Part shown: piece by piece, positions 1 through 62,474 of the stretch | How the letters are laid out: each line of letters opens with the position of its first letter | How positions within the stretch are numbered: the stretch's first letter is position 1 | From: Nereocystis luetkeana | Lineage: Eukaryota > Sar > Phaeophyceae > Laminariales > Laminariaceae | DNA: 64,000 bases | Assembly (NCBI GenBank): GCA_031213475.1 | Contig: JARUPZ010000010.1 | Location: 935,001-999,000 of the forward strand | Reading direction: 5' to 3' | Made by a program: the position numbers and the translations under genes | The notes under the pieces: model-generated | What the model was told of the DNA's origin: nothing | Databases searched by the model: none | The model's input: only the letters and a program-made list of their open reading frames with translations

Positions 1-3000
1 AGCGAGATCGAGGACTCCACCATCTTCGGGCTGGAGTTCGGCTACGAGTGAGTGTTAAAGTGACGCAGGATTCAACTTATTTCTTCGGCGCTGCACACAT
101 GTCTCCGACTGATTCTTGTCATACTGCAAATACACGTAGGATTCATATATATATATGTATATATATATATATATATATATATATATATATATATGTGTCT
201 TTGCCTTAACCTCGACTCCGTCCCGTGGTTGCCGCGTCCAAAATAATTATAAATACATTATCTGCATACTAAGTCGCGCGCCAGCTGCGCCGTGGACCCG
301 CTTGTTGCCGCCGCACATCCGTTTTTTCCTCGATTCGTTCGCTGCGTGCCTCTCTGCCTGGGTGCCGCAGTTGCATCATCAGGCGAAATAAATGCTGCAG
401 CAGTTGTTGCGTGCTACGTAGGTTAACGGGTTGTACATGCGTGCTGCATGTTTTTCATCGACCAACCGACCAATCAACCAATCAACTCATGGGCCGACGA
501 ACTTATGGACCGATCAACCTATCGACCAACCAACTTATGGACCGACCAACGTATCGACCCGTGCATCAGGTGCTACTGCGGAACCGACCAGTCCGACTTC
601 GAGTATCACGGAGAGGTGGACACCTGCGACTTGCCGTGCCTTGGCGACGAAGCCACTGCCTGCGGTAAGAGAGATACACACGTTACATGTCGGGGTCCGG
701 TAAATCCTCGTGGGTCAGGTGTGTGAGCGTGGCCCGGGCCGACCCGACCCGACCCGACCCGACCCGACCGGTCAAATTTCAAAAACTGGCTGACCCGACC
801 CGCAAACGTATCGTAGACCAATCAGATTCGACTGTCCTTTTTTTACCGCCTCCCTCCTCCAAGTAAGTATTATTAGTATAGATCAACCACTGAAAGTATA
901 CTCTCGTGCTGCCTACAGCACCACACGGACACAGGCGGCTGGCTTGGCATGAGCGTCTACGCCATGGAAGGCGTTGACGCCGCCCGTCCGGTCCGCCCGT
1001 TCGCGAATACCCAACCCCACGCTTGCTTACAGTTGACACCGAAAACAAAAATGTTTCCACGATCACTACCGAGCACCATTCCACCACACTGATGTTTTAT
1101 TTAATCGATCCCGCGTTTTTTTTTTTCTTTTCTTTTTGTGTGTTCCGTCAATTGTTTTGTTTCCCTCCCGAATCACGACATGAAACGATGGAAACGATTG
1201 CACAGGCGGATGGCTTTCCATGAGCGTCTACACTATGGAAGGCGTTGTCGACTTCGTCGACAGTAGTGGTACTGATGACTGGGGGCGAGAGAGCATAATC
1301 GTGTGGTACGATTCCTTCTTCTCCGACTTGGACGACGATGGGTCGGAGGATGATGGCGATAACTACCAGGGCTGCTACACGGACGAGCGGGGGGAGATGC
1401 GGGCGATGAAGACGAAGGTGGCCGCGAGCGACAACATGACCGTCGCCAAGTGCCGCGCGTTCTGCCAAGACTCCTCCATCTTCGGGCTGGAGTACGGAGA
1501 CGAGTGAGTACAGCAGCAATTTTACGGGGGGGAGACTATATTAAATAGGGGACCTGCGGTACACACAAAAACCTACCAGGTATGTCTTTACCCAATTTTA
1601 CTAACAATATCTGGTCCTATTTACTATGGCCCCCCGTAGCAGTAGTGGTCCCGTCCCTCTCTATAGTGCCAGTAGGCCGCTCCCAGGGCCTAGAGAACGC
1701 GAAAGAATTGCGGCTGGACCCCGCCCCTAGCGCTCGCAGTCCCCAGGCGGGGGGTGGTGTGGTGGCTCGATACGGTACTTGCCTCATCGAGCGATGCCGG
1801 GTTGGTTGAGTCCTGCCACCCACATCGTGTACATAAAAAACCTTGCTTGTCCAAGCTTTCCAAGGCATGAACTGTTGAGTAGTAGTATACGGAGTAGTTC
1901 GTGCTGGTTGCCGGCGTAGTACCGGCGTTGTTGGCTGACGCATACCATACCAACAATCGCGCTTTTCGTAGTTTTTTTTTTGTTTTCTCTTTTGAGCTGG
2001 CAGCCATAGGTGTAAGTAGTAGGCTACAAAACGCACCCTAGTTATATGTAGCCAGCGTGCCTGCCTGCCTGCGCTCCCTTGCTTGCCCGTATATCTGTAT
2101 CCCCGTCAAACTACCACTCTGTCATACATCAACATGGGCTCAAAACGGTCATACATCAACATTGGCTCAATACGATCATACATCAACATTGGCTCAAAAC
2201 GGTCATACATCAACATTTATTTGCTCAAAACGGTCATACATCAACATTGGCTCAAAACGGTCATACATCAACACTGGCTCAATACGATCATACATCAACA
2301 CTGGCTCAAAACAGTCATACATCAACATTGGCTCAAAACGGTCCTACTGTCAAGGGCCAAACTGGTATACAACAGGTTAGACAAAAACCGATTGCCCTAA
2401 ATTTTTCTAGTTCGCCTCCACCTCAAGACTACACAGCAAGTTGACCAGTATCTACTGTAGTTGCCCTACACGTATATATACTACGTTTTCCGTGCTGTAA
2501 ACCTGCTCTGTCTACCCTATACTGTTAGCATGGGTCATAAACATCGCCGGCTGTGGAGTGTTTTTTTTCTTCATTTTTTCAGCTGGTTCTAAACTTGCCA
2601 CTGGGAGAGAATAGGTATCGCCTGCCTCTCTTGACGAAACCTTTACCAGGTATTTATTCTTCTTTGCTCTGAGCAGATGCTGGTGCTTCTTTGCTGGTGC
2701 TTCTACCTTGTACCGCGGTCCCTGTTCTTCGATAATGTACCGTTTCGGACGAAATATCGTTTTTCTTGCTTTTTATTTTGCTCCGAGCAAGAAGCTGGTG
2801 ATTCTTCTACAAAACCTTGTACCGCGGTTGTTATTCCTATCACCCCGCATTCGCTATTACCCCGCATTCGACGACATTTTTTTTCCCCACCCCTCGTTCT
2901 TGTTTTTGGATTATTCAAGCATGCTTTTGGAGTTTTTTGTTCTTGTATTTTTTTCCTTTCTCTTTTGTTTGTTATCGTTTGAGCATGTTTTTTTTTTACC

Positions 3001-3302
3001 AAGATTCGTTTTTTGTTTTCTTTTTTCTTTTTCTTTTTTCGCGTATGCTTTTGACGAAAATTCGTTTTATCCTTTCTCTCGTTCGGTTTGTATTATTCGG
3101 GCATGCTTTTGACGAAAATCGTGCTTTTGGCGAAAATCGTATTTTTTTTTCGTTCGTTTTCGTTAGATGCTGGTGCGGCGACGGCGATTCGTTGGACGCG
3201 GAGAAGAAGCTCAAAGACGAAGAGTGCGACTACCCTTGCGCTGGAGACCCCGACTCCACCTGTGGAGGCTTCTGGCGCATCGCCGTGTACGAGAGCGGTT
3301 GA
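1..3302 (+). CDS. WSC-domain protein, 3' part of a multi-exon gene (5' end outside window)
   Basis: Four exons chain with consistent phases: 1-47, 570-664, 1206-1503 and 3167-3302, ending at TGA 3300-3302. Donors are GTGAGT, GTAAGA and GTGAGT; acceptors end CAG, CAG and TAG. The product holds a partial WSC domain (start lost to the left, then CYCG, a TCDLPC block and CGG) and one complete WSC domain (YQGCYTD, CRAFCQDSSIFGLEYG, CWCG, CDYPCAG, STCGG). Between them lies an acidic linker rich in Asp and Gly. WSC is a cysteine-rich extracellular module known for carbohydrate binding, so a wall or matrix role is likely; no catalytic domain is visible in the part present. The last intron (1504-3166) is 1.66 kb and holds a MITE, a 27-bp minisatellite and two TACCAGGTA motifs. 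A partial copy of the third exon sits at 935. Domain call firm; junctions inferred. Confidence 0.82.
146..196. repeat. (TA)n microsatellite
   Basis: About 50 bases of alternating T and A with a few G interruptions, inside the first visible intron of the WSC gene. Confidence 0.9.
727..801. repeat. Short GACCC-type array in a WSC intron
   Basis: GGCCCGGGCC is followed by about six tandem GACCC units and a further GACCC pair after a spacer. It is the same repeat type as the large arrays at 51.0-53.2 kb and a few units near 41250. Confidence 0.7.
935..1092 (+). other. Duplicate of the 5' end of the next WSC exon (alternative or dead exon)
   Basis: From the acceptor CAG before 935 the sequence reads GGWLGMSVYAMEGVD, nearly the same as GGWLSMSVYTMEGVVD that starts the exon at 1206. 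The acceptor and phase are identical to the 1206 exon. The similarity stops after about 45 bases, and the reading frame meets TGA at 1090-1092. Splicing to it would cut the protein before the second WSC domain. It is either an alternative terminal exon or a relic of exon duplication. Confidence 0.5.
1520..1639 (+). mobile_element. MITE copy 1 (TTACGGGGG family), carrying an internal TACCAGGTA
   Basis: A diverged member of the ~109-bp family described at 15861. The right half (TTTTACTAACAATATCTGG to CCCCCCGTAG) is well kept. Relative to the other copies it has 7 extra bases at a TA, giving TACCAGGTA at 1574-1582. It lies in the last intron of the WSC gene. Confidence 0.75.
2122..2343 (+). repeat. 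27-bp minisatellite, 8 units, in the last WSC intron
   Basis: The unit is CATACATCAACATTGGCTCA followed by AAACGGT. Units vary between CAAAACGGT and CAATACGAT endings, and one carries a 4-base insertion. The multiple-of-3 period keeps all three forward frames open, so the short ORFs here are artefacts. Confidence 0.9.
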
Positions 3303-60905: not shown

Positions 60906-62361
60906 TACCGTACCCCGTGGTGGCACGGAAGAAAGAACACCCCGGTGATATCATTTTGACCTTTAAAACACAAAACCGCCGGGGGTGCTGTTGTGGGGGG
61001 GGGTGTCCTATCTGACGCATACCCGGTGAAAAGCAATATGATTACGAACGAATATAAGTATTACCTTATTGAGTACGACATATTGTATTTCATGGGTGTC
61101 TTAAAGGTGAAAAACATGGCGTGCTGGGATGTGCTGAGATAAGGACGCTGTTCGGGTCGAAGTAACGGCTATATGCGAAGACACCACACACGTTATTGGG
61201 GATGTTTTCGTAGGGCATTTGTATCCCAGACGCTGGGGTTATGTGGGACTAACACCTTCGAAATTTCAGTTGTGCCTCCCAGACGGTTGACATCTGTACA
61301 CCCTATTCCTTCAACTGGCACTCTGTAGGAACACGATGCTGGGATGTACCTTCCCAATAATTAGGACAGATTCTTTTAGATGTAACGGATTTATGTGAAG
61401 ACAACATAGACGCCATTTGAAGACGCTTTCCGATAGCACAGCCTGCGAAACAACGGTACCTTTACCCCGTTCGGTTGGCAACTAGCCGAAATGTAGTGGT
61501 GACTTGGAAACTTCCCCCCGAAATGTGACATATCTATCATGTAGGGGGTGTGGTACCTCGAGGGTTCGACAACAACGGGGTGTACTATTCGCATATGGAC
61601 GTGAAGATCCGCACTGTGTTCGTCAGGAGACATCCGTGGAACATCTCTGGGTTTCTTACGGAAACACGGAAACATGGATCTTGGGGGTATAACAAATGTT
61701 GCGTCCTTGTTGCTGGGAAACATTGCCCACAGCTGTCACTCTGTTAGGTCTTCTAATAAACTTGTGCATCTCTTACTTCGCGTCGCCCAGGGTGGTTGAC
61801 TTAGTTGAGTGGTACAGCGATATGCTGGCCTCAGGCTGAGCTTGGTTATCCAGGGCGTGCCGCAGTATTCGAGGGTAGGCCGGTCATCGCACGGGAAATT
61901 TCGAGTTTGGGGGTGGGGTGTGGGTATCTTCCGGTCAGGTTCCGATCGTGAGGGCATTAGGCGTCTTGGGTATCGGGTCCTCGGATATAACATTCAGGCC
62001 CTCTTCGTGTTTTAGGCCTATCACGGGGAGGCTCCTGGAAAATAAGCTGCGTCATCTAAACTCATCATTTGCGAATGGGTACCGAACCGGACGTTGTTGT
62101 GGTATCGCCCGAGGTCGAGCTCGTGGACCATGTGGCTTAAATTCGTGTTGGGCCAGAGAAATCTGCTACTGACTGTAGCGCAGGAGGTTTTGAGGGCAAA
62201 TAACGCGAGGGCAGAACGCTTAACGTAAGCGAAGAAGTTTGTTGACGATCAAATCGGTTCTTGTGCCCGGATGAAGGTTATGAGTGAATCAATTGCAGAG
62301 TGTCCGGTCGTGTTTGCTTGCCCGGAGTCGAAACTTTTATCTCTGAACCTGGACCCTCTAC
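60906..62361. other. Gene-free stretch with a weak duplication
   Basis: TGCTGGGATGT, TGTGAAGACA and related parts at about 61120-61335 recur at about 61336-61540, suggesting an old tandem duplication. No gene recognised. Confidence 0.4.
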
Positions 62362-62474
62362 TATTACGGGGGACCATACCTGGTAGTAAGTATGACCTCC
62401 GATACACACAAAATCGTATACGTTTGGCTACTACTCACAACGTTTGGCCCTGTTAACTATGTTCCCCCGTAATA
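62362..62474 (+). mobile_element. MITE copy 8, carrying an internal TACCTGGTA
   Basis: It starts TATTACGGGGGACCATACC and ends TATGTTCCCCCGTAATA. The left end holds exactly 7 more bases between ACCA and GACC than the other copies, producing TACCTGGTA at 62377-62385. Confidence 0.85.

Follow-up and report, generated by a model that had tools for sequence, protein, structure and literature searches.

The 64,000-nucleotide stretch of the Nereocystis luetkeana genome studied here (positions 935,001 to 999,000 of contig JARUPZ010000010.1, GenBank assembly GCA_031213475.1; hereafter the window) contains scattered copies of a near-palindromic 9-mer, TACCWGGTA, which a first-pass annotation had proposed to be excision scars of a TA-targeting transposon. 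We use the word scar for these copies throughout. As annotated, there are 15 exact copies, 11 with a central A (TACCAGGTA) and four with a central T (TACCTGGTA). A second-order Markov model leads one to expect 0.56 (P about 7e-17) and dinucleotide shuffles of the window hold 0.88 on average, with none of 100 shuffles reaching 15. No other 9-mer palindrome centred on W is nearly as frequent there, the runner-up having five copies.

Two of the scars lie in a family of miniature inverted-repeat transposable elements (MITEs). The first scar, a TACCAGGTA at 1574..1582, is hosted by MITE copy m1 (1520..1638, plus strand), and the last, a TACCTGGTA at 62377..62385 with a second TA at +7, by copy m8 (62358..62474, plus strand); copies m2 (15859..15969, plus strand) and m6 (38975..39087, plus strand) are free of insertions and provide the empty-site comparison. 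Another TACCAGGTA, at 22364..22372, falls in one member of a repeat pair at 22.2/22.4 kb whose other member is shorter. The remaining TACCAGGTA scars are found at 2644..2652, 7012..7020 and 16843..16851 (both with a TA at -7), 15107..15115, 16695..16703, 20826..20834 and 37600..37608 (preceded by TGCCAGG and CACCAGG, respectively, each perhaps a decayed second unit), 49616..49624 (TA at +7) and 57256..57264 (TA at +7, among diverged repeats), and the remaining TACCTGGTA scars at 23194..23202, 23600..23608 (TA at -7) and 24500..24508. The scars at 1574 and 2644 probably share an intron of a WSC-domain gene: they sit between two putative coding parts, a 3' part at about 3165-3269 that has Pfam support and a 5' part at about 1355-1500 that was read from the translation (Pfam returned no match in 1301-1450), so that the putative halves of the WSC domain are separated by a stretch holding a MITE and two scars.

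Results

Abundance of TACCWGGTA across the genome

The excess extends to the entire assembly (465,085,209 bases in 1,987 contigs), in which TACCWGGTA occurs 182,395 times and the same pattern read backwards, our control, 1,744 times. A third-order Markov model built on local sequence with the scars masked predicts about 2,600 copies of the motif and about 2,150 of the control; the latter value being near the counted one, the model performs well for the control, and the observed motif count is about 70 times expectation. The genome-wide count that the first-pass annotation had suggested as a check thus comes out far from chance level. For finer comparisons we used a local set of 314 kb, made up of C1:1-200000, C10:885001-935000 and the window, with one 4.4-kb satellite masked. 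This set holds 111 scars, 97 of which are not adjacent to another, and with simple repeats masked no other of the 387 TA-N5-TA motifs occurring there is as strongly enriched as TACCWGGTA (107 copies against 2.8). Open segments of at least 150 amino acids, which are not equivalent to genes, span 94,880 of the 314,000 bases and contain 26 of the 111 scars.

Exact insertion of seven bases at TA

The nine MITE copies in the window, each of about 100-120 bp, align well, and their alignment bears out the seven-base differences that had been noticed in copies 1 and 8. In m1 and in m8 a TA is replaced by TACCWGGTA, a gain of 7 bp (CCAGGTA or CCTGGTA), and at each of these places the other eight copies have no bases. 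The 22.2/22.4-kb duplication is a less clean case: the 10 extra bases with the motif, as first described, are present, and they amount to seven plus three rather than to a pure 7-bp difference.

For a broader test, the 60-base flanks of the 97 non-adjacent scars were searched separately, with 800 random TA-N5-TA sites as controls. Both flanks were found together elsewhere for 26 scars (three of them only far apart), which form the testable set. A copy with TA alone, that is two bases, between the flanks exists for 13 of these 26, and copies with nine bases for nine. Among the controls, 177 of 800 had flank pairs elsewhere, 122 of them with nine bases and four of the 177 with two. The 13 scars with an empty site correspond to about nine independent events: in one repeat family a single scar was counted four times in different copies, and in another family a single scar was counted twice. 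Aligned by a different method, 14 of 38 scars showed an exact 7-bp gap against 8 of 186 controls, and among 219 alignments of repeat copies across scars, 61 have the exact 7-bp gap and 28 have the scar in common. In these cases repeat copies with and without the motif differ as had been anticipated, by exactly seven bases at a TA, and we regard it as confirmed that TACCWGGTA arises by an exact 7-bp insertion at TA.

Imperfect junctions and the probable polarity of the ends

The intact scar is nearly symmetrical, and the first-pass annotation had left open whether the element ended in CCAGG or in CCTGG. Imperfect junctions are informative here. Shortening of each overhang to three bases would turn CCAGG ends into TACCATGGTA and CCTGG ends into TACCTAGGTA. 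Genome-wide, TACCATGGTA is enriched (3,002 copies against 477 from the scaled local Markov model or 623 in the reversed control; part of the local TACCATGGTA stems from one repeat family, which the genome-wide figure includes), whereas TACCTAGGTA is not (175 against 220 or 182). Ends of the form 5'-CCAGG...CCTGG-3' are therefore probable, and of the two options first considered the polarity points to CCAGG and away from CCTGG. Other junctions compatible with CCAGG ends are likewise in excess in the 314 kb, namely TACCATA (81 against 35; 62 against 36-40 with simple repeats masked), TACCAGTA (27 against 11), TACCGGTA (15 against 3.3) and TACCAGGGTA (6 against 0.7), while their mirror forms stand at 14 against 14 for TACCTTA, 15 against 8.4 for TACCTGTA and 1 against 0.4 for TACCTGGGTA. 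Of any terminal inverted repeats, the junctions would give the outermost five bases only, a CCAGG on each side.

The proposal that the central W comes from mismatch repair is in keeping with a central base that varies almost independently of the single flank examined: genome-wide, T at both positions ±5 accompanies a central A at 13,906 sites and a central T at 14,954. Among 78 independent local scars, an asymmetry that followed the central base had appeared at positions ±5 (p = 0.0085, uncorrected), and we discarded it, as it is absent genome-wide, where there is a slight lean in the opposite direction. Three further TA-flanked motifs are over-represented in the 314 kb, TACWGTA (110 against about 53), TACCGTA (67 against 34-42) and TACGTA (164 against 80-91), which may represent excision products either of different TA elements or of the one behind TACCWGGTA.

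Target preference and clustering

The sequence around the scars has a preferred composition of the kind that an enzyme would impose, in line with the idea of a TA-targeting element. A second TA stands seven bases away on 61 of the 222 sides of the 111 scars, against 6.8% near any TA, and the preference is alike on both sides (-7 in 31 of 111, +7 in 30 of 111). Removing duplicate flanks and any second scar within 60 bp leaves it on 37 of 188 sides against 12.8 expected; in these filtered flanks T occupies -1 in 7% and G occupies -7 in 5%, and of the other TA phases, -14 drops to 16 against 12.8 expected, -21 stays at 23 and -8 stays at 26. Genome-wide, 21,214 of the 182,395 scars have a TA at the 7-bp distance on both sides.

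Scars also occur next to one another, with 15,917 adjacent doubles in the genome against two in the reversed control. Neighbours less than 200 bp apart, doubles included, make up 19% against 7% in one stretch and 33% against 10% in the other, and local hopping is one possible reason for this clustering. Some repeats have been hit repeatedly, as at locus L029 (6230-6410), where four scars lie on one MITE copy and its edges.

Decay of the scars

With one mismatch allowed, the motif is found at 367,383 places. Sites with exactly one mismatch number 184,988 against about 77,400 expected, and those of the control pattern 64,511 against 65,338. An excess of about 107,600 one-mismatch sites over an exact excess of about 179,800 corresponds to about 0.067 changes per site across the nine positions, and the local count gives 0.075 changes per site over eight positions. 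If the entire one-mismatch excess consists of decayed scars, about 287,000 scars are still recognisable. Among the 70 of 97 repeat pairs listed (at least 88% identity over at least 150 bp), three pairs at 90-93% identity differ by scars. From a decay of about 7% per site we infer that activity lies mostly in the past, or else that the element is now very rare.

Transposases in the genome

Transposase domains of the relevant kind are present in the assembly. DDE_1 has 46 matches, and a Tc1/mariner-like DDE_3 protein has 70, ten of them 99-100% identical. A first scan for DDE_3 gave no match, a negative worth little because a 4.3-kb Tc1/mariner-like element, reached via the DDE_1 search, does carry a DDE_3 domain, in a transposase of 493 amino acids. 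This element has ends TTACGGAGGCTCATAATTAGTAGG, and of the two copies examined (L038 with L040, and L039 with L041), both of which lie in TAG/CTA microsatellite, the cleaner is flanked by TA. Its ends resemble the window MITEs, and it is probably the parent type of the window's TTACGGGGG MITEs. We considered it as the maker of the scars and set it aside, because its ends read TTACGGAGG... and not CCAGG.

Other features of the sequences

The window further contains a 4.4-kb (ACT)n array at 7151-11598 (1,483 copies, 99% match) and a 207-bp unit tandemly duplicated at 100% identity at 4624-5039. The first 3.7 kb or so of contig C1 (C1:1-3769) consist of the telomere repeat CCCTAA. The CCCTAA/TTAGGG telomere arrays, the WSC domain, the genome size and the 4.3-kb element with its MITEs would all be in keeping with a brown alga.

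Discussion

We propose that TACCWGGTA is the excision footprint of a cut-and-paste DNA transposon with a TA target, TA duplication and 5'-CCAGG...CCTGG-3' ends, and we put the probability of this reading at roughly 0.86. The data themselves display the enrichment, the exact insertion at TA, the one-sided polarity of imperfect junctions, the target preference and the weak link between the central base and the flank examined; the transposon, its 3' overhangs, the mismatch and repair steps and the re-use of scars as targets are what we infer from them. The element would insert at a TA and duplicate it. On excision it would be cut five bases inside its ends, so that the five terminal bases of each end remain behind at the donor site as 3' overhangs, both reading CCAGG. 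These could then anneal at four of their five bases, leaving a central A-A mismatch, and ligation with mismatch repair in either direction would produce TACCAGGTA or TACCTGGTA; trimmed overhangs would give TACCATGGTA, TACCAGTA, TACCATA, TACCGGTA and TACCAGGGTA as minor products. As targets the enzyme would prefer TAs that have another TA (W followed by A or G) at a distance of seven bases, and it would avoid a T just before the TA. The scars themselves match this preference and could be hit again, which would yield the TACCWGGTACCWGGTA arrays.

The number of scars may be reconciled with such a mechanism. Cut-and-paste transposition without copy gain would leave one scar per jump while the copy moves on, and because it need not raise copy number, few copies could leave this many scars over a long time; the element itself would now be either very rare or gone. 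Under neutral theory the rate of scar fixation would equal the number of jumps per genome per generation, so that at about 0.02 jumps per generation 200,000 scars would accumulate in ten million generations.

The closest known parallel is the excision footprint of Sleeping Beauty and other Tc1-like elements, TACWGTA, in which CAG ends remain. There, too, TA is duplicated and the residual end bases pair except in the centre, where repair of the mismatch yields an A or a T; the difference is that Sleeping Beauty leaves three bases (CAG) and the scars here hold five (CCAGG). The mariner element Mos1 has ends CCAGGTGTAC..., whose first five bases are CCAGG, but it also leaves three bases. The 4.3-kb element described above, from the same genome, has TA flanks and a DDE_3 transposase and differs from the scars in its ends.

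In the sections of published work considered, Tc1/mariner footprints are generally 2-4 bp and those of ZB 0-3 (PMC7913693), the pogo-type element Passer leaves 0-4 bp (PMC9976928), and Osmar5/Stowaway leaves terminal inverted repeat fragments of 1-4 bp (PMC1925063). As far as these sections go, the Tc1/mariner and pogo systems share with our scars short pieces of terminal repeat between two TAs, and the footprint here differs in being 5 bp long and very uniform and in occurring some 180,000 times within a single genome. Two hallmarks of Tc1/mariner are thus seen, a TA target that is duplicated (in the 13 of 26 testable scars, or about nine independent ones) and a palindromic AT-rich target preference with T rare beside the TA, while the dominant 5-bp footprint falls outside the 0-4 bp given in those sections. 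Since that uniform footprint lies beyond the range, we claim a likeness, that the scars appear to work like Tc1/mariner excision, and we assign no superfamily membership. The 4.3-kb element and its MITEs resemble a 4.4-kb/217-bp pair of TcMar element and MITE described from Ectocarpus (PMC12477816), a paper whose main text contains no word starting with 'excision' or 'footprint'. Our literature search found neither TACCAGGTA, TACCTGGTA nor TACCWGGTA as a whole word, and no description of a 5-bp TA footprint.

Several observations weigh against an excised transposon, or at least against parts of the scheme above. The most important concerns the element itself. The search for intact TACCAGG...CCTGGTA elements that had been recommended at the outset came back empty: no convincing TACCWGG...CCWGGTA pair with matching inner sequence was found up to 8 kb apart in 264 kb (the pairs listed there include one TACCAGGTGTAC and no family of such ends), nor any convincing pair up to 400 bp apart in the 314 kb. 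Genome-wide, TACCAGG...CCTGGTA pairs spaced 107-167 bp number 177 against 398 in the reversed control, no clear excess, and among the 51 such places listed five are 119 bp long and the other lengths are spread. No transposase was tied to CCAGG ends. Among the junctions, TACCTA is not enriched in the 314 kb (116 against 117 expected), and TACCTGGGGTA, which has the wrong polarity, occurs three times there against 0.1 expected. The gap of 7% between the two central-base counts is small, yet above counting noise. Of the 219 repeat-copy alignments, 22 run through the scar ungapped, and another 108 contain indels of other kinds, some of them the 7-bp gap in a shifted position; alignment to ancestral sequence without a 7-bp gap had been named beforehand as a result that would speak against excision, and this is what the 22 do, set against the 61 with the exact gap. 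One scar, at C1:93508, aligns ungapped to copies reading TACCACGTA, from which it probably arose by a point mutation. The adjacent doubles exceed mean-field estimates of 1,245 without target preference and of about 10,000 with an eightfold one, so that target preference alone may not suffice to explain them. Among 86 isolated local scars, those whose nearest neighbouring scar lies more than 60 bp away in either direction, TA stands on both sides in two, against 2.8 if the sides were independent, and the genome-wide count of two-sided TAs may therefore owe much to neighbouring scars. Finally, no scar difference appears in the 19 listed repeat pairs with at least 94% identity, although these cover few kb and have low power.

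That no intact element was found in the sequence searched gives some room to other explanations. The seven bases might have been added by another enzymatic route, perhaps by a recombinase or by ligation of free transposon ends, with no full element ever present. Both the empty searches and the target preference would fit this, but the spectrum of partial junctions is largely that of trimming two CCAGG ends; we know of no enzyme that makes such an addition, and we think the idea improbable. Slightly less probable still is programmed DNA elimination, in which some 180,000 short-lived or germline-only elements, retained in another cell stage, would be removed during development by uniform excision with a 5-nt stagger, as in ciliates, in a multicellular alga, and all of them would be missing from the tissue sequenced. 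It would account for about 180,000 uniform junctions and for the failure to see an intact element in the stretches searched. Against it stand the decay of about 7% per site and the fact that scars are common to some repeat copies and absent from others, as inherited old scars would be, and to our knowledge no such process occurs in this kind of organism.

A selected motif, for protein binding or some other function, that arose by point mutation is a more remote prospect again. A near-palindromic 9-mer in very many copies, a few of which align ungapped, could be read in this way, but the motif appears as a 7-bp insertion at TA, its imperfect junctions follow CCAGG ends, and the clear excess of one-mismatch forms amounts to decay. 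Least credible of all is slippage of a heptamer tandem repeat, as in bacterial TACCWGG arrays, for although doubles and longer arrays are present, only 15,917 adjacent pairs exist among 182,395 scars, 97 of the 111 local copies are not adjacent to another (14 are), and the empty state is one TA, with no unit to copy, at unrelated sites that each gained a single insertion.

The bacterial arrays came to light when the triple motif was sought in other genomes. Public viral contigs gave no match; in bacteria, 40 loci (L042-L081) from unrelated genome bins look like short TACCWGG tandems, often mixed with TACTTGG and TACCTAG, with three bins holding five or six of the loci each, and we set these heptamer arrays aside as a different phenomenon.

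If the transposon reading is right, the scars form a fossil record of a transposon's jumps and not of its copies, each being the trace of one completed visit, and a very large set of natural events would reveal, with no need of an assay at the bench, how targets are chosen, how accurately breaks are repaired, how far hops stay local and how old they are. The high fidelity of repair would be explained by a 5-nt stagger whose overhangs are nearly self-complementary, a property that could be of help in building a transposon tool. Insertions of 7 bp at such density could account for many small indels and frameshifts. More generally, it would suggest that hundreds of thousands of visits to one genome can leave almost no copies of the visiting element behind, and surveys of transposons that rely on copies would therefore overlook such an element.

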